In this document: piece after piece, positions 19,514 through 32,009 of the stretch | Layout: each line of letters starts with the position of its first letter | Numbering within the stretch: the first letter of the stretch is position 1 | Source: Gillisia sp. Hel1_33_143 | Lineage (GTDB): Bacteria; Bacteroidota; Bacteroidia; Flavobacteriales; Flavobacteriaceae | Assembly (NCBI RefSeq): GCF_900104765.1 | Contig: NZ_LT629737.1 | Coordinates: 3,286,001 to 3,350,000, forward strand | DNA length: 64,000 bases | Direction of reading: 5' to 3' | Translations under genes and position numbers: made by a program | Notes under the pieces: model-generated | What the model saw: only the letters and a program-made list of their open reading frames with translations | What the model was told of the DNA's origin: nothing | The model's database searches: none

Positions 19514-21190
19514 TTACTGTTGGGCACAGACATCTGCATGTACTGCCACCCAGAATTCTCCATCTCCAGAATATTTAAAATTGTATATGTTTGGATCTAC
19601 TGATGATGGGTCTGGATCTATAATACCATCTGAGTCTGGAAGTTTATCGAATTGACCAGGTGCATCTGTAACAGGCATATTATCACTAGTATAAATATGA
19701 ATTAGCTTCAGATCTATACCTCCTAAAGATTCAACACTTATAATGATATTAGATCCTTCAGCAGTAATCACTGCTGTACCTACCAATTTTTCAGGGCCTA
19801 TCTTATTATTTCCTGCTCCGGCATAAATATTAAATGAAGTATTATTTTGAGTTTGCACAGAGAAAAGTTCTGCCCATCCCCATTTAGCACTTACATTTAA
19901 CCCATCATCATCTTTTTTAGTCCATGTATGGTCTCCAAACATCCAGGCAGTATTACAAGAATCTCCATTTGTAATAGGGCATCCATTATTACTCTCCGGT
20001 CCTGGGACTGTCTTACATTCATCTTTACAATCTGGAATACCATCGTTATCTTGATCTAAATTATCATCTACATCAGGGCATTCATCACATGCATCCCCAA
20101 TACCATCAGCATCGCTATCTAGCTGTGCTGGATTATAGGTATTTAGGCAATTATCAATCTCGTCTTCTATCCCATCGCAATCAGAATCATTATCTGCACA
20201 AGGCTCATCCTCACATCCTTCTCGGAAATGATAATAGGAAGAATTACCATTATCATTGTATAGTGCAAGCACCTCTGCATCTGTAATTGTAAAGCTTTGT
20301 TTTAAACCTTCTGGAGCATCATAAGCCCCATCAAAATCTAGAATTGTGATCTCTATGTAATATGTATCTATACCTGTTCTATCTGGTAATGCTATACACG
20401 ATGGTTTCGCATATGCCTCAATGGGAGTATCATAAAATCCTGTTGAGTTAATCAAGGCACCATTTGTTAAAGCAAAACCTTTAGGATCATTAGGTTCTCC
20501 ACTAAAGGTCCACGCTTCTAAACTAAATCTCGCCGGAAAGTGGATCACTTCTTCATTGCAATAATTTCCAAATACACAAAGTGTAATAGTCTCTACGGTG
20601 GTAAAATCAAAAAACAGATATCCATATTCATCTGCCATTCTTTGATCATAGCACAAAACTTCTACATCTACGTATTTCTTTACTCCTGCTCTAAGATCAA
20701 TTTCTATTGGAAGTGGAGAACTCACAAAGGCCGCAAAATTTGAGGGTCCATATACATCATTAGACCTAGGGGCTATCCATAAAGTTGTATTATTCGCATC
20801 AAGAACAGCAAAATATTCTAAGGTATAAGTATCTTCTGGAAGCTCCAATTCTTCTACTTCATTGGTTATCCATCCATCTCCATCAGAAATCATGGAAATT
20901 TCTATATAGTTCCCAAGGTCTCCATCTCTACCTGCAACCCATGCACCTAAAGAATTCTTTAATGCTACTCTAACTTTAGTAGGAATTGTTTCAGAACATT
21001 CCGGAACATCGCCAGTTACACCTTGCTTTAAAGCAGCTCTGGTAGCTTCAAAATCTTTTAATAAGGTACTAAATGAGATAGACGCAAGATTTGAAGAATC
21101 GATCACACCACTTTGCTCATCTTTACTACAAGAAGAAAAAAACATGATTAAACATACCGAAATGGTAATACAGAGTTTAAATTTTTTCAT
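19514..21190 (-). CDS. Paralogous surface lipoprotein E with thrombospondin type 3 repeats
   Basis: 558 residues. The lipobox is MFFSSC, followed by SKDEQS. Residues about 30-320 are the shared domain (ISFSTLLKDFEATRAALK, VPECSETIPTKVRVAL, LEYFAVLDANNTTLWIAPR, YVDVEVLCYDQRMADEYGYLFFDF). Asp-rich thrombospondin type 3 repeats follow (about 325-395: DNDSDCDGIEDEIDNC, LDSDADGIGDACDECPD). The final 150 residues contain WGWAELF, FNIYAGAGNN, VGTAVI and a closing FWVAVHADVC. This pattern recurs at the ends of secreted marine Bacteroidetes proteins and is related to the end of paralog C. It lies directly downstream of the LuxR-type regulator gene. Confidence 0.86.
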   Translation of the reverse strand: MKKFKLCITISVCLIMFFSSCSKDEQSGVIDSSNLASISFSTLLKDFEATRAALKQGVTGDVPECSETIPTKVRVALKNSLGAWVAGRDGDLGNYIEISMISDGDGWITNEVEELELPEDTYTLEYFAVLDANNTTLWIAPRSNDVYGPSNFAAFVSSPLPIEIDLRAGVKKYVDVEVLCYDQRMADEYGYLFFDFTTVETITLCVFGNYCNEEVIHFPARFSLEAWTFSGEPNDPKGFALTNGALINSTGFYDTPIEAYAKPSCIALPDRTGIDTYYIEITILDFDGAYDAPEGLKQSFTITDAEVLALYNDNGNSSYYHFREGCEDEPCADNDSDCDGIEDEIDNCLNTYNPAQLDSDADGIGDACDECPDVDDNLDQDNDGIPDCKDECKTVPGPESNNGCPITNGDSCNTAWMFGDHTWTKKDDDGLNVSAKWGWAELFSVQTQNNTSFNIYAGAGNNKIGPEKLVGTAVITAEGSNIIISVESLGGIDLKLIHIYTSDNMPVTDAPGQFDKLPDSDGIIDPDPSSVDPNIYNFKYSGDGEFWVAVHADVCAQQ

Positions 21191-25759: not shown

Positions 25760-25784
25760 AACTTAGATTTTGAATAAAGACTTG

Positions 25785-26474
25785 ATGAATACAAAGCAAG
25801 GCAATAAAGCCTGGAACGAAATTAGAACCAACGATTCTTGGGCCATTTTTAAAATAATGGGAGAATTTGTAAAAGGTTATGAAAAACTTAGTCAGATTGG
25901 TCCATGTGTATCCATTTTTGGATCTGCAAGAACAAAACCAGATCAAAAATATTACAAGCTAACAGAACGTATCGCGCAAAAAATTGTAGATCACGGTTAT
26001 GGTGTAATTACTGGTGGTGGACCAGGGATCATGGAAGCAGGAAATAAAGGAGCACATCTTGGAGGAGGAACTTCTGTTGGTTTAAATATAGACCTACCGT
26101 TCGAACAACACGATAATCCTTATATAGATCAGGATAAAAGCTTAGATTTTGATTACTTTTTTGTTAGAAAAGTAATGTTCGTAAAATACTCTCAGGGTTT
26201 TGTTGTTATGCCAGGAGGATTTGGAACTTTAGATGAATTATTTGAAGCTATTACACTAATACAAACTAATAAAATAGATAAATTTCCTATTATTCTTGTA
26301 GGTACAGATTTTTGGGGTGGCCTAATAGATTGGGTTAGATCTACACTTTTAGATACTTTTGAAAATATAAGTGCTGGAGATATGGATCTTGTTCAAGTGG
26401 TAGATACAGAAGATGAGGTTATAGACATTTTAGATAAATTCTATGATGAATATAATCTAAGTCCTAATTTCTAA
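25785..26474 (+). CDS. LOG-family protein (TIGR00730, lysine-decarboxylase-like fold)
   Basis: 229 residues from the ATG at 25785 (MNTKQGNKAW); TTG codons at 25770 and 25782 are less likely. It has the Rossmann-like nucleotide-binding motifs GGGPGIMEAGNKGA and MPGGFGTLDELFEAITLIQT, which define the LOG family. Many members are cytokinin riboside 5'-monophosphate phosphoribohydrolases or general nucleotide 5'-monophosphate nucleosidases, not lysine decarboxylases. It lies 25 bases after uvrA and is probably co-transcribed. Confidence 0.88.
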   Translation: MNTKQGNKAWNEIRTNDSWAIFKIMGEFVKGYEKLSQIGPCVSIFGSARTKPDQKYYKLTERIAQKIVDHGYGVITGGGPGIMEAGNKGAHLGGGTSVGLNIDLPFEQHDNPYIDQDKSLDFDYFFVRKVMFVKYSQGFVVMPGGFGTLDELFEAITLIQTNKIDKFPIILVGTDFWGGLIDWVRSTLLDTFENISAGDMDLVQVVDTEDEVIDILDKFYDEYNLSPNF

Positions 26475-26563: not shown

Positions 26564-29380
26564 TTGAACGCTAAGTCAATATTTTTAATTGTTTTTTTGT
26601 ACGTAGGGGGAATCCTTGGGTATGCCCAAACCCGTACAGAAATTACTGCGGTCTTGAATGACTCTACCAATATTTTTAATATTCAGCAGAAGATCATCTA
26701 CAAGAATAGCAGTACTTCGGTATTGAAGGATATTTATTTAAATGACTGGGCAAATAGCTTTAGAGATAAGTCTACTCCATTAGCCAAGAGATTTGCAGAA
26801 GATTACCTTAGAAGGTTTCATTTTGCAAAAGAACAAGAGCGAGGCTACACTAAGATTTATGGTATTAACGATGCCAATATCCTTCCTTTATCATGGGTGA
26901 GATCAGATAGTCTGCCAGATATCGTGCAGGTAAATTTAAGCAAGCCACTTCAACCGGGAGAATCTACAGAGATCAACTTACTCTATCAGGTCAAGATACC
27001 TTCAGAAAAATTTACTCGTTACGGTTATGATGACGATGGAAATTTTAAGCTGAAGTACTGGTATATCACTCCTGCAGTTTATGATGGTAAATGGGTTTTG
27101 TATAGCGATAAGAATTTAGGCAATCAATACTCCCCTCCTATCAATATTAAACTTAAGTTATCTACTAGACCTTATTTATACGTTGCGTCTCCTTTAACCC
27201 AAGAGAAATTAGTTACCGAAGACCAATACAAAACGTCTTATCTTTCTGGTATCAATGTAGTAACATCAGACCTTTACCTGACCAAAACATTTAGATTTGA
27301 ATCGCTTTCTGCAAATTCAAAAGTAATACTTACTAATTTAGAAGATGAAGGGTTGAACCCGGAGATCAAAACTTTCTTGCTAGAAAGGATCATGAAATTC
27401 CTTCAGACCAGGCTGGGCGAGTATCCTCACAAATCTTTGATGATCACTAAAGATGATTATCAGGATAAGCCTGTATATGGTCTTAATCAGCTTCCTAAAT
27501 TTATAAGACCTTTTCCAGATGGTTTTAATTATGATATGAAGCAATTAAAAACCATCATTCATACCTACCTAAAAAATACCGTTTTAATAAATCCCAGAGA
27601 AGAACAATGGTTATATGATGCCATACAGATTTCCTTAATGATGGATTATGTAGATGAGTATTATCCTAAAATGAAGTTGCTGGGTAGCTTAAGCAATATT
27701 ATTGGAATTAGATGGTTCCATGCTTCAGATCTAGAATTTAATGATCAGTATCCTTTCCTGTATGAGCATATGGCTAGAATGCATATGGATCAATCCTTGG
27801 CTACTACTCAAGATTCTTTGGTAAAATTCAATCAGAATATTGCCAATGCATATAAAGCGGGAGCAGGATTTCATTATATGAATGACTTTTTAGAAACAGA
27901 TGCTGTAAAAAGATCTATTTCAGAATTTTATAAAAAGAATGTTCTACAACCAACAAGCAGTGCAGAATTTGAACAAATATTAAAGAAGAATGCTGATAAA
28001 GATGTAAACTGGTTCTTTAAAGATTATGTTCAAACCGATGATAAAATAGATTTTAAGATATCAAAACTTAAGAAAAGTAAGGATTCTCTAGAGGTTACCA
28101 TTAGAAATAAACGTGCTAATGGTATGCCTGTTTCGTTATATGGGTTAAAAGATGGAAAAGTAGTTTATAAAGAATGGGTAGAAGATATTGGTTCCAGAAA
28201 AACGGTTACCATTCCAAGAGATAGCATAGAGCGATTGGCTCTAAATTACAATGCAGCCATTCCAGAAGTTAACAAAAGAGATAATTATAAAGGAGTTACT
28301 ACTCTTTTTAATAAACCTATACAGTTTAGAATTTTTCAGGATGTAGAAGATCCTCATTACAACCAGATGTTCTTTATGCCAGAATTTAGTTATAACCTTT
28401 ATGATGGCTTGGCAATAGGACCAAAATTATATAATAAGACCTTTTTAAGCAGAAACTTTGATTTCAGGATTTCTCCAAAATTCGGATTTACGAGTAAGAC
28501 AATTGTAGGTTCTGCCGCTATTGCCAATACTCAATTTTTTGATGATCAAAATCTTTTTGCTGTAAAATATGGAATTGGAGGAACAAGATTTTCTTATGGT
28601 TATGATTTATTCTATAATAAGTACACTCCCTTTTTAGGTTTTTATTTTAGAAACAATTACTTAAGAGATAACTTAAGACAGAGTTTATTTATAAGAAGTG
28701 TAAATGTAGAGCAAGATCTAAATCCATTAAATCCTGTAGATCAACCAAAATATAATGTATTTAATATAAGCTACAATTTTAAAGATGCCAATTTAGTAGA
28801 TTACTTCTCTGGAGGAATAGATTATCAATTGGCAAAGAACTTCAGTAAAGTTGCTCTAAACTTAGAATACAGAAAGCTATTCAGAAACAATAGGCAATTA
28901 AACCTAAGGTTCTATGCTGGAACGTTCCTATATAATGATGAAACAGACAACGATTATTTTAGTTTTGCATTAGATAGACCTACAGATTATCTTTTTGATT
29001 ATAATTACTACGGACGTAGTCAAAGTTCCGGACTTTTTAGCCAACAGATAATATTAGCGGAAGGTGGATTTAAATCTAAGCTAGAACCTGCGTATGCAAA
29101 TCAATGGATCACTACGGTAAATGCAAGCACCAACATTTGGAAATGGATCTATGCTTATGGTGATGTGGGTGCAGTTAAAAACGAATTGAAGAATGCAGAA
29201 TTTCTTTACGATTCTGGGATTAGACTAAGTTTTGTTGCAGATTATTTTGAACTATATCTTCCAGTTTATTCCAATCTAGGTTGGGAAATTGGTCAGGAAA
29301 ATTATGATCAAAAAGTTAGATTCATAGTCACTTTAGATATTAATACGCTCATTAAATTGTTTACTAGAGAGTGGTATTAA
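26564..29380 (+). CDS. M1-peptidase-like protein with lost active site, fused to an outer-membrane beta-barrel
   Basis: 938 residues. The start appears to be TTG at 26564, giving a normal signal peptide (IFLIVFLYVGGILGYAQ); the nearby ATG at 26550 is out of frame. Residues about 20-480 resemble an M1 (gluzincin) aminopeptidase with its N-terminal saddle domain. The zinc-binding helix HExxH reads H333-T-Y-L-K337, and the downstream Glu ligand is replaced in WLYDAIQ. Catalysis therefore looks lost. Residues about 590-938 consist of amphipathic beta strands (YNLYDGLAIGPKL, FGFTSKTIVG, FYFRNNYLRDNL) and end in REWY, with an aromatic last residue as expected for an outer-membrane barrel. It is probably an outer-membrane protein with a periplasmic pseudo-peptidase domain. 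Confidence 0.75.
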   Translation: MNAKSIFLIVFLYVGGILGYAQTRTEITAVLNDSTNIFNIQQKIIYKNSSTSVLKDIYLNDWANSFRDKSTPLAKRFAEDYLRRFHFAKEQERGYTKIYGINDANILPLSWVRSDSLPDIVQVNLSKPLQPGESTEINLLYQVKIPSEKFTRYGYDDDGNFKLKYWYITPAVYDGKWVLYSDKNLGNQYSPPINIKLKLSTRPYLYVASPLTQEKLVTEDQYKTSYLSGINVVTSDLYLTKTFRFESLSANSKVILTNLEDEGLNPEIKTFLLERIMKFLQTRLGEYPHKSLMITKDDYQDKPVYGLNQLPKFIRPFPDGFNYDMKQLKTIIHTYLKNTVLINPREEQWLYDAIQISLMMDYVDEYYPKMKLLGSLSNIIGIRWFHASDLEFNDQYPFLYEHMARMHMDQSLATTQDSLVKFNQNIANAYKAGAGFHYMNDFLETDAVKRSISEFYKKNVLQPTSSAEFEQILKKNADKDVNWFFKDYVQTDDKIDFKISKLKKSKDSLEVTIRNKRANGMPVSLYGLKDGKVVYKEWVEDIGSRKTVTIPRDSIERLALNYNAAIPEVNKRDNYKGVTTLFNKPIQFRIFQDVEDPHYNQMFFMPEFSYNLYDGLAIGPKLYNKTFLSRNFDFRISPKFGFTSKTIVGSAAIANTQFFDDQNLFAVKYGIGGTRFSYGYDLFYNKYTPFLGFYFRNNYLRDNLRQSLFIRSVNVEQDLNPLNPVDQPKYNVFNISYNFKDANLVDYFSGGIDYQLAKNFSKVALNLEYRKLFRNNRQLNLRFYAGTFLYNDETDNDYFSFALDRPTDYLFDYNYYGRSQSSGLFSQQIILAEGGFKSKLEPAYANQWITTVNASTNIWKWIYAYGDVGAVKNELKNAEFLYDSGIRLSFVADYFELYLPVYSNLGWEIGQENYDQKVRFIVTLDINTLIKLFTREWY

Positions 29381-29544: not shown

Positions 29545-29576
29545 ATTGTATTTAACCTTAGTTTTAGCTATATTTG
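29545..29576 (+). promoter_or_regulatory. Promoter of the fused E1 gene
   Basis: ATTG (29545-29548), a 20-base spacer and TATATTTG (29569-29576) fit the Bacteroidetes -33/-7 consensus. The -7 element ends 21 bases before the ATG at 29598. Confidence 0.65.
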
Positions 29577-29597
29577 TTACAATTCAAACTTAATTTC

Positions 29598-32009
29598 ATG
29601 CAAAGCGAAACACCATCTAAAGAAACTATTTCTTTTGAAGATTTTAAAACAGAAGTTTTAGAAGATTATAAAATTGCAGTCACCAGCCGTGAGTGTAGCT
29701 TACTTGGGAGAAGAGAGGTTCTTACCGGAAAAGCTAAATTTGGAATTTTTGGCGATGGGAAGGAAATCCCACAATTAGCAATGGCTAAGGTTTTCAAAAA
29801 TGGAGACTTTAGATCTGGTTACTATAGAGATCAAACCTTTATGATGGCTATTGGAGCATTAACTATTCAGCAATTCTTTGCCGGTTTATATGCAGATACA
29901 TCTATAGAAGAGGAGCCAATGTCTGCAGGTAGACAAATGGGTGGTCATTTTGCTACTCATAGTTTAAATGAAGATGGAAGTTGGAAGAACTTAATGCTAC
30001 AAAAGAACTCCAGTGCAGATATTTCACCTACAGCTGGCCAAATGCCAAGATTATTAGGGCTTGCGCAAGCTTCTAAGATCTACAGAAATGTGGAAGGAAT
30101 AGATGCAGAAATGTTCTCTAACAATGGAGATGAAATTGCATGGGGAACTATTGGGAATGCAAGTACTAGTGAAGGTCATTTTTGGGAAACCATAAATGCT
30201 GCCGGAGTATTACAAGTGCCAATGGTTATGAGTGTTTGGGATGATGAATATGGAATTTCTGTTCACGCAAAATATCAAACTACAAAAGAAAACATCTCTG
30301 AGATCCTTAAAGGTTTCCAAAGAGATGAAAATAATAAAGCATACGAGATCATTATCGTAAATGGTTGGGATTATGTAGCTCTTGTGGAAGCGTATGAAAA
30401 AGCTTCAAAAATTGCCAGAACAACGCATTCTCCTGTTCTAATTCATGTTAAAGAACTTACCCAACCTCAAGGTCATTCCACCTCAGGTTCTCATGAGCGT
30501 TATAAGGATGAAGATAGATTAAGTTGGGAAAGAGCTTATGATTGTAATGTGAAATTCAAAGAATGGATCATTGAAAATAATTTTTCTACGGAAGAAGAAT
30601 TAGATGCCATAGATAAAACTATTAAAAAGCAGGTTAGAGATGGAAAGAAAGCTGCCTGGACAGCTTACTCTCAGCCTATGAAAGATAAGTTGAAAGAACT
30701 TTTACCTCTTCTAAAAGCTGCTGCAACAGATAGTAGCGATGAAGCTACCATAGAAAATCTAACTAAAGAGCTTTCAGAAATTAAAGATCCTCTTAAGAAA
30801 GATCTTTTAGTAGCTGCTAGAAAGAGTTTAAAATATCTTATAGGAATAGACAGCGATGCTAAAACAAAACTTGCTGACTGGATTACAGATTACACCAATC
30901 AATCTCAACCTGAATACAGCAGTCATCTTTATAGTGAATCAGAAAATATCGCTCAAAATGTTGATGAAATAGCAGCAGTTTATTCTGAAGATTCTAAAGA
31001 TGTTGATGCTAGGATAATTCTTAGAGATAACTTTGATAAGATCTTTGAAACCAGACCTGAAACTTTAATTTTTGGAGAAGATAGTGGAGAGATAGGAGAT
31101 GTAAATCAAGGTTTAGAAGGACTTCAGGAAAAGTATGGAAAGTTAAGAGTTGCAGATGTTGGAATTAGAGAAGCTACCATATTAGGACAGGGTATTGGAA
31201 TGGCCATGCGTGGACTAAGACCTATTGCTGAAATTCAATATTTAGATTACGTGCTATATGCATTGCAAATAATGAGTGATGATTTGGCAACCCTACAATA
31301 TAGAACTAAAGGAAAACAAAAAGCACCGCTTATAATTAGAACCCGTGGACATAGATTAGAGGGTATCTGGCATAGTGGATCTCCAATGGGAGCTTTAGTT
31401 CATTTATTAAGAGGAATTCATATTTTGGTTCCTAGGAATATGACCAAAGCTGCTGGATTTTATAATGCATTGCTCAAAGCAGACGAGCCTGCATTAATTG
31501 TAGAATGCCTTAATGGATACAGGTTAAAAGAAAAATTACCAGAGAATCCGGGAGAATATACTACGCCAATTGGAGTAGTAGAAACTATTAGAACTGGTAC
31601 AGATATAACTTTGGTTTCTTATGGATCTACACTAAGATTGGTAGAGGAAGCTGCACAAGAATTAGAGCAAGTAGGTATCTCTGCAGAAATTATTGACGTT
31701 CAATCTCTTTTACCTTTTGATCTAAATCAGGACATAGTGAAGAGCGTTGCTAAAACTAATAGATTATTGGTAATAGATGAAGATGTTCCTGGGGGAGCTT
31801 CTGCATATATTCTTCAGAAAATTGTTGAAGATCAAAATGCATATATCCATCTAGATAGTAAACCTCAAACGCTCACAGCTAAAGCACATAGACCGGCTTA
31901 CGGTACAGATGGAGATTACTTCTCTAAACCTTCTACAGAAGATATCTTTGAAAAGATCTACGAGATAATGAATGAGGCCAGACCTCAAGATTTTCCACAG
32001 CTTAGATAA
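29598..32009 (+). CDS. Fused alpha/beta E1 component of a 2-oxoacid (branched-chain type) dehydrogenase
   Basis: 803 residues from the ATG at 29598; the in-frame TTG at 29574 lies inside the -7 element. The N-terminal half (about 1-400) is the thiamine-diphosphate-binding alpha subunit (MSAGRQMGGHF, NGDEIAWGTIGNASTSEGHFWE). The C-terminal half (about 470-803) is the beta subunit (RPETLIFGEDSGEIGDVNQG, VADVGIREATILGQGIGMAMRGLRPIAEIQY). It should decarboxylate a branched-chain 2-oxoacid or pyruvate and pass the acyl group to E2 lipoate; E2 and E3 are not in this window. The fused form is usual in Flavobacteriia and not an assembly error. Confidence 0.92.
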   Translation: MQSETPSKETISFEDFKTEVLEDYKIAVTSRECSLLGRREVLTGKAKFGIFGDGKEIPQLAMAKVFKNGDFRSGYYRDQTFMMAIGALTIQQFFAGLYADTSIEEEPMSAGRQMGGHFATHSLNEDGSWKNLMLQKNSSADISPTAGQMPRLLGLAQASKIYRNVEGIDAEMFSNNGDEIAWGTIGNASTSEGHFWETINAAGVLQVPMVMSVWDDEYGISVHAKYQTTKENISEILKGFQRDENNKAYEIIIVNGWDYVALVEAYEKASKIARTTHSPVLIHVKELTQPQGHSTSGSHERYKDEDRLSWERAYDCNVKFKEWIIENNFSTEEELDAIDKTIKKQVRDGKKAAWTAYSQPMKDKLKELLPLLKAAATDSSDEATIENLTKELSEIKDPLKKDLLVAARKSLKYLIGIDSDAKTKLADWITDYTNQSQPEYSSHLYSESENIAQNVDEIAAVYSEDSKDVDARIILRDNFDKIFETRPETLIFGEDSGEIGDVNQGLEGLQEKYGKLRVADVGIREATILGQGIGMAMRGLRPIAEIQYLDYVLYALQIMSDDLATLQYRTKGKQKAPLIIRTRGHRLEGIWHSGSPMGALVHLLRGIHILVPRNMTKAAGFYNALLKADEPALIVECLNGYRLKEKLPENPGEYTTPIGVVETIRTGTDITLVSYGSTLRLVEEAAQELEQVGISAEIIDVQSLLPFDLNQDIVKSVAKTNRLLVIDEDVPGGASAYILQKIVEDQNAYIHLDSKPQTLTAKAHRPAYGTDGDYFSKPSTEDIFEKIYEIMNEARPQDFPQLR

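Follow-up and report, generated by a model that had tools for sequence, protein, structure and literature searches.

A predicted fusion of a non-catalytic M1 peptidase domain with an Omp85-like outer-membrane barrel in Flavobacteriaceae

Omp85 proteins build outer membranes and have otherwise been described with POTRA domains or with a few other N-terminal domains. Ten Omp85 subfamilies are set out in one survey (Heinz and Lithgow, PMC4104836), whose main text includes a 'Metallo' group carrying PF00149, lists no M1 peptidase subfamily and has 0 occurrences of the word 'peptidase'. In PlpD, as presented in PMC11116518, an N-terminal enzyme domain is carried on an Omp85 barrel and kept in the periplasm. 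BepA of E. coli is described as a metallopeptidase that works at BAM in the periplasm. For F. johnsoniae, a DELTA-BLAST search with TamA is reported to return three proteins (PMC12045153), and the BAM complex is given as BamA, D, G, H, M and P (PMC12611786).

The protein analysed here is encoded in a 64,000-nucleotide stretch of the Gillisia sp. Hel1_33_143 genome (the window) and combines an M1 peptidase fold with a predicted outer-membrane barrel. It is set apart from the named F. johnsoniae BAM subunits by their description, none of them being called a peptidase in the main text of PMC12611786, in which the word occurs 0 times. Among open-licence PubMed Central papers, we found neither an M1-Omp85 fusion nor a published experiment on any member of this family.

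Gene, start codon and genomic setting

The gene is an uninterrupted frame of 938 codons on the forward strand (26564-29377) with a stop codon directly after it, and the last two residues of its product are Trp-Tyr (Table 1). A local pseudogene is ruled out by the intact frame and the conservation of the family. Searches with the window protein gave nothing credible in Pfam (one chance match, E 0.2) and zero matches in NCBIfam and among PDB sequences. Within Flavobacteriaceae, a match at E 0.001 or better is present in 145 of 149 genomes (weak in G023 and G089), and the match is of orthologue grade in 143 of the 149.

The TTG start proposed in an earlier, sequence-only reading of this DNA is confirmed and proves to be conserved in the family, not a local oddity. 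When starts are counted in a span of set length around the aligned position, TTG is the only one available in 97 of 134 Flavobacteriaceae members, ATG is available in 22, GTG or both in 5, and none of the usual starts occurs within the span searched in 10. In contrast, ATG is available for the orthologues of the neighbouring genes at every locus counted (uvrA 59/59, LOG 84/84, bkd 89/89), which suggests selection for weak translation as a putative effect of the conserved TTG. Among 26 M1-barrel relatives with an intact zinc site, described below, ATG is available in 21 and TTG alone in 2.

At 72 named loci, from Gillisia, Christiangramia, Aequorivita, Aquimarina and others, the gene is preceded by a LOG-type gene (directly upstream in 69) and by uvrA (in 65, counted from the listing), and is followed by a 2-oxo acid dehydrogenase gene in 62, several of the misses being contig ends. 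No neighbour or partner at the examined loci points to envelope assembly, and no partner in common with the window was found among the gene neighbours at the loci examined outside Flavobacteriaceae. In the window itself, the downstream gene (29574-32009) is a single 811-aa frame that by eye resembles fused alpha and beta parts of 2-oxo acid dehydrogenase E1, and 19514-21190 encodes, again by eye, a 558-aa lipoprotein-like product with calcium-binding thrombospondin type 3-like repeats. At 6 of the 20 loci viewed across all families, all 6 in family f4 (L219-L222, L224 and L228), a gene of ca. 310-390 aa without a family-search name lies 3' of the M1-barrel gene.

Table 1. Features of the M1-barrel gene and its product, in window coordinates.
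Feature	Coordinates	Strand	Basis
LOG-type gene (neighbour, not part of the protein)	25770..26474	+	directly upstream in 69/72 named loci
Whole gene, 938 codons and stop	26564..29380	+	open frame, translation
TTG start codon, conserved in the family	26564..26566	+	sole usable start in 97/134 orthologues
Signal peptide, residues 1-21	26564..26626	+	read by eye; model helix at 3-19
M1 domain I, N-terminal beta saddle, residues 22-258	26627..27337	+	model secondary structure; VIA match to ERAP1
M1 domain II, one-time catalytic helical domain, residues 266-490	27359..28033	+	model, VIA match
Gln309, at the Glu of GMEYP (GAMEN site of M1) in intact relatives	27488..27490	+	family alignments
K329-T330-I331-I332-H333, at the HExxH place	27548..27562	+	family alignments, column counts
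Asp352, replacing the Glu that is the third zinc ligand, with the x18 spacing retained	27617..27619	+	alignment, column counts
Small all-beta domain, residues 497-570, at the M1 domain III position, no POTRA-like helix	28052..28273	+	DSSP, VIA range
16-strand outer-membrane barrel, Omp85-like (predicted), residues 600-922	28361..29329	+	models, Foldseek, VIA, profile comparison
Long loop between strands 11 and 12, residues 792-847, at the Omp85 L6 position; most conserved part in the dead clade	28937..29104	+	barrel model, conservation
D867-x-G869 (strand 13), in register with the DAG of TamL-like proteins	29162..29170	+	long profile alignment; near invariant in alignment A2

The M1 domain and its former catalytic site

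In the AlphaFold model of the whole protein (75 sequences; pLDDT 90.2), the fold of M1 domains I-III is recognised over residues 21-631, with a VIA Z of 22.5 and an rmsd of 3.5 for 468 residues aligned to ERAP1 (6mgq_B), in agreement with the earlier claim that the M1 scaffold is retained. This fold stands in place of the patatin domain that would mark a PlpD-type protein. The former zinc site reads K329-T-I-I-H333-x18-D352 as compared with HEVGH-x18-E in relatives, a register that is set by the latter because they share the architecture and keep the motif. The sequence-only reading had correctly called the site dead, but had located it at HTYLK (333-337), four residues out of register; that string overlaps the true one (KTIIH, 329-333) only at its first His, which is one of the two zinc His residues and happens to remain in the window protein. 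The Glu ligand that it had reported as missing is replaced by Asp352, and no intact HExxH was found elsewhere in the protein.

The loss extends across the family. HExxH occurs in 0 of 134 full-length members, the window protein included, and is also absent from 30 further Flavobacteriaceae members, some of whose genomes overlap the earlier set; it is present in four stand-alone M1 paralogues of 614-627 aa. In 99 full-length members, with columns numbered as in the window protein, Lys occupies position 329 in all 99; position 333 carries Arg in 56 members and His in 6, and at 352 Asp is found in 56 members and Gly in 41. The protein thus has the fold of peptidase family M1 and lacks both HExxH-x18-E and the GAMEN-type Glu (Gln309), and for want of the zinc motif it is not filed as an M1 peptidase. 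The alignments and predicted models give good support for an outer-membrane barrel bearing a non-catalytic M1 domain. That the site is dead throughout the family although the fold has been preserved is more than chance would produce.

A phylum-wide search gave matches in 281 of 395 genomes, many of them weak or due to stand-alone M1 proteins, and M1-barrel proteins with an intact HExxH-x18-E are found in several other Bacteroidota families (L173-L190, L235, L238, L243, L247-L251). Within the order, the fetched copies are dead in f2, f56, f57, f65 and f66 and intact in f58, f59, f64 and f67, with one dead and one intact copy in f68, and seven dead copies and two intact second copies in f60. The two f60 genomes concerned (L243 and L247) encode intact M1-barrel copies of 1006 and 1033 aa besides the dead one. 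A tree was calculated with the catalytic columns removed for 66 rows of a 120-row set, from which relatives with E above 1e-45 or shorter than 880 aa had been left out. The dead/intact label needs two changes on this tree, and a single branch separates 39 dead rows from all others. These computations support one loss for the dead clade, which is ancestral to Flavobacteriaceae and older, as the earlier reading had proposed to check. The second change is a separate loss of the zinc site, with HAMGC for HExxH, in family f4 (L191:346-3108). This dead M1-barrel gene adjoins an intact stand-alone M1 gene of 573 aa (L191:3148-4866).

The barrel and the distribution of constraint

Modelled alone (120 sequences; pLDDT 91.3), the C-terminal region forms a predicted barrel of 16 strands by DSSP count, in which a long loop joins strands 11 and 12, so that the outer-membrane barrel ending in Tyr, like the M1 fold that the earlier reading expected beside it, is present in the AlphaFold models. 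Its best structural matches are TamA, BamA and Sam50. In Foldseek, ranks 1-35 are all Omp85 proteins (best E 3.7e-6), with LptD at rank 36, and by VIA the best Omp85 match is BamA (Z 16.6), the gap to the unrelated barrels OccK10 and LamB (Z 13.9-14.0) not being wide. Because of this narrow gap (16.6 versus 14.0), profile tests were added, in which the barrel matched TamL-like sets at 55-60% (32-60% in global comparison), while the controls stayed low, reversed profiles reaching no more than 1% and the Porin_O_P and FadL sets no more than 0.4%. The BamA profile set itself did not match the barrel (0.3%), but matched the TamL-like sets at 58-79%. Pfam contains no Omp85 match to the window protein or to the barrel parts of family members, which were the parts scanned, and a PDB search with the barrel profile led nowhere. 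DUF5686 was rejected as a relative of the barrel, with 2 of 120 members matching (best E 3.3e-6) and a profile comparison of just 0.6%.

The L6-like loop lies in the right place and has a near-invariant Arg818 in a motif of the type Y-x-GR(S/N), the usual Omp85 L6 motif being (V/I)RG(F/Y). No POTRA is found in residues 497-597, which are modelled as strands with only a short turn (572-574) and without POTRA-like helices. The 16-strand C-terminal barrel of Omp85 proteins is present by prediction, and for lack of a POTRA the protein is not filed as a canonical Omp85 member. This requirement is not absolute, since a subfamily without N-terminal domains is described in PMC4104836. From the models and profiles, the predicted barrel is best described as Omp85-like without POTRAs.

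The distribution of conservation differs between the dead and the intact proteins. In alignment A1, whose 75 rows are what remained of the 134 full-length members once these had been reduced to 76 sharing less than 70% identity and the fragment L037 had been dropped, the mean majority share in the dead Flavobacteriaceae rows is 0.75 for the L6-like loop, 0.56 for M1 domain II and 0.48 for domain I, and this order is reversed in the 26 intact rows (0.41, 0.53 and 0.63, respectively), which form a broader set than the dead one. At a matched M1 identity of 0.35-0.45, in separate realignments of 45 rows sampled randomly from the 93 dead ones and the full set of 26 intact rows, barrel identity is 0.484 for dead (274 pairs) versus 0.217 for intact proteins (179 pairs), groups that hardly overlap (standard deviation 0.06 each), although the pairs are not independent. 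At matched M1 identity, the L6-like loop is 0.69 identical in dead and 0.23 in intact proteins; L191 was in neither group of the loop and barrel comparisons. Because barrel identity is 48% in dead versus 22% in intact proteins at equal M1 divergence, we read these sequence comparisons as a move of constraint, and with it of function, from the enzyme to the barrel in the dead clade.

Possible function and comparison with known systems

With its cutting site lost and a barrel that resembles machines for building outer membranes, the protein probably no longer serves to cut other molecules but to hold or thread them. Our main reading, to which we assign a probability of about 0.5, is that of an Omp85-type factor with a pseudo-peptidase as periplasmic binding module in place of POTRAs. 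The M1 module lost its zinc site and the HExxH Glu in an ancestor of Flavobacteriaceae and related families; it would lie in the periplasm, where POTRAs usually sit, and its former substrate cleft may bind protein or peptide without cutting. The barrel would do Omp85-like work by assisting the insertion of a client in the outer membrane or its passage through it, the conserved TTG start may keep the amount of protein low, and the intact relatives would represent the enzymatic form, for example in membrane-tethered proteolytic quality control. Of the two roles suggested earlier, that of receptor has no support; that of assembly factor has some, in that the matches ranking best for the barrel, by structure and by profile, are of Omp85 type.

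The periplasmic module, perhaps dimeric, might instead bind or sense lipids or peptides of the envelope where it sits, the barrel being mainly an anchor with no part in assembly or translocation. This is how the arrangement of PlpD (PMC11116518) could be extended to the present protein, and it would agree with loci that show no genetic link to assembly genes; we consider it unlikely, since constraint in the dead clade is highest in the barrel and L6 loop, beyond the needs of an anchor, and since PlpD has a POTRA and the window protein none. The Z values of OccK10 and LamB and the want of a Pfam name would suit a barrel of porin or transporter type that has no relation to Omp85 and carries a decaying M1 lid, an explanation made improbable by the run of Omp85 proteins in Foldseek, by the match to TamL where the Porin_O_P and FadL controls fail, and by an M1 part that is not freely decaying. 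Also doubtful, and slightly more so, is a type V-like self-export in which the barrel carries the M1 module to the surface as an adhesin or ligand-binding domain, in line with the receptor idea. An N-terminal module followed by a C-terminal barrel is the type V order, and export was assumed in earlier views of patatin-Omp85 proteins; against this, export of PlpD is reported as disproved (PMC11116518), a folded M1 module is large for the barrel lumen, and surface domains usually vary fast, whereas the M1 module is kept at a majority share of 48-56% in the dead clade. A still-active metallopeptidase with an altered or relocated metal site is hardly credible. His333 and an acidic side chain at 352 are retained in the window protein, but of 99 members only 6 have His333, 41 have Gly at 352 and all have Lys at 329; both the HExxH Glu and the GMEYP Glu are gone, and there is no HExxH elsewhere.

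The protein could belong to a further Omp85-type subfamily missed by sequence surveys, and we put forward this wider proposal tentatively, as somewhat less than an even chance. A peptidase domain would have taken the place of POTRAs and later died in Flavobacteriales. What had been a protease tethered to the outer membrane would thus have become a factor for assembly or translocation that is non-catalytic, spread through the whole lineage and marked by an L6 signature of its own and a weak, conserved TTG start. Such a near-universal, unnamed pseudo-peptidase relative in Flavobacteriaceae could extend the recently described outer-membrane assembly machinery of Bacteroidota. The family is also a natural experiment, in which a single architecture carries an enzyme that is alive in some lineages and dead in others, with constraint on the barrel once it is dead.

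Compared with the intact M1-barrel proteins, which have the same domain order, a similar length (912-1055 aa) and an alignable sequence over most of the profile, the window protein differs in its lost HExxH-x18-E, in a barrel and L6-like loop that are far more conserved, and in its start codon. With TamL, TamA and BamA it shares the 16-strand barrel, the long loop between strands 11 and 12 and the DxG on strand 13, but it has an M1 module instead of POTRAs, the Y-x-GR(S/N)-type L6 sequence and no Pfam match. PlpD and the patatin-Omp85 proteins (type Vd) similarly place an N-terminal enzyme-type domain on an Omp85-type barrel; the domain is M1 rather than patatin in the window protein, is dead in the Flavobacteriaceae clade and comes without a POTRA. 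The M1 aminopeptidases ERAP1, tricorn factor F3 and LTA4H share the fold of domains I-III at ca. 10% identity, whereas in the window protein the zinc site and GAMEN Glu are lost and a barrel replaces the C-terminal domain. BepA, finally, offers a parallel in that a fold of peptidase type may in both cases work at an Omp85 machine, but BepA is an active, separate protein, where the window protein has its parts fused and its site dead.
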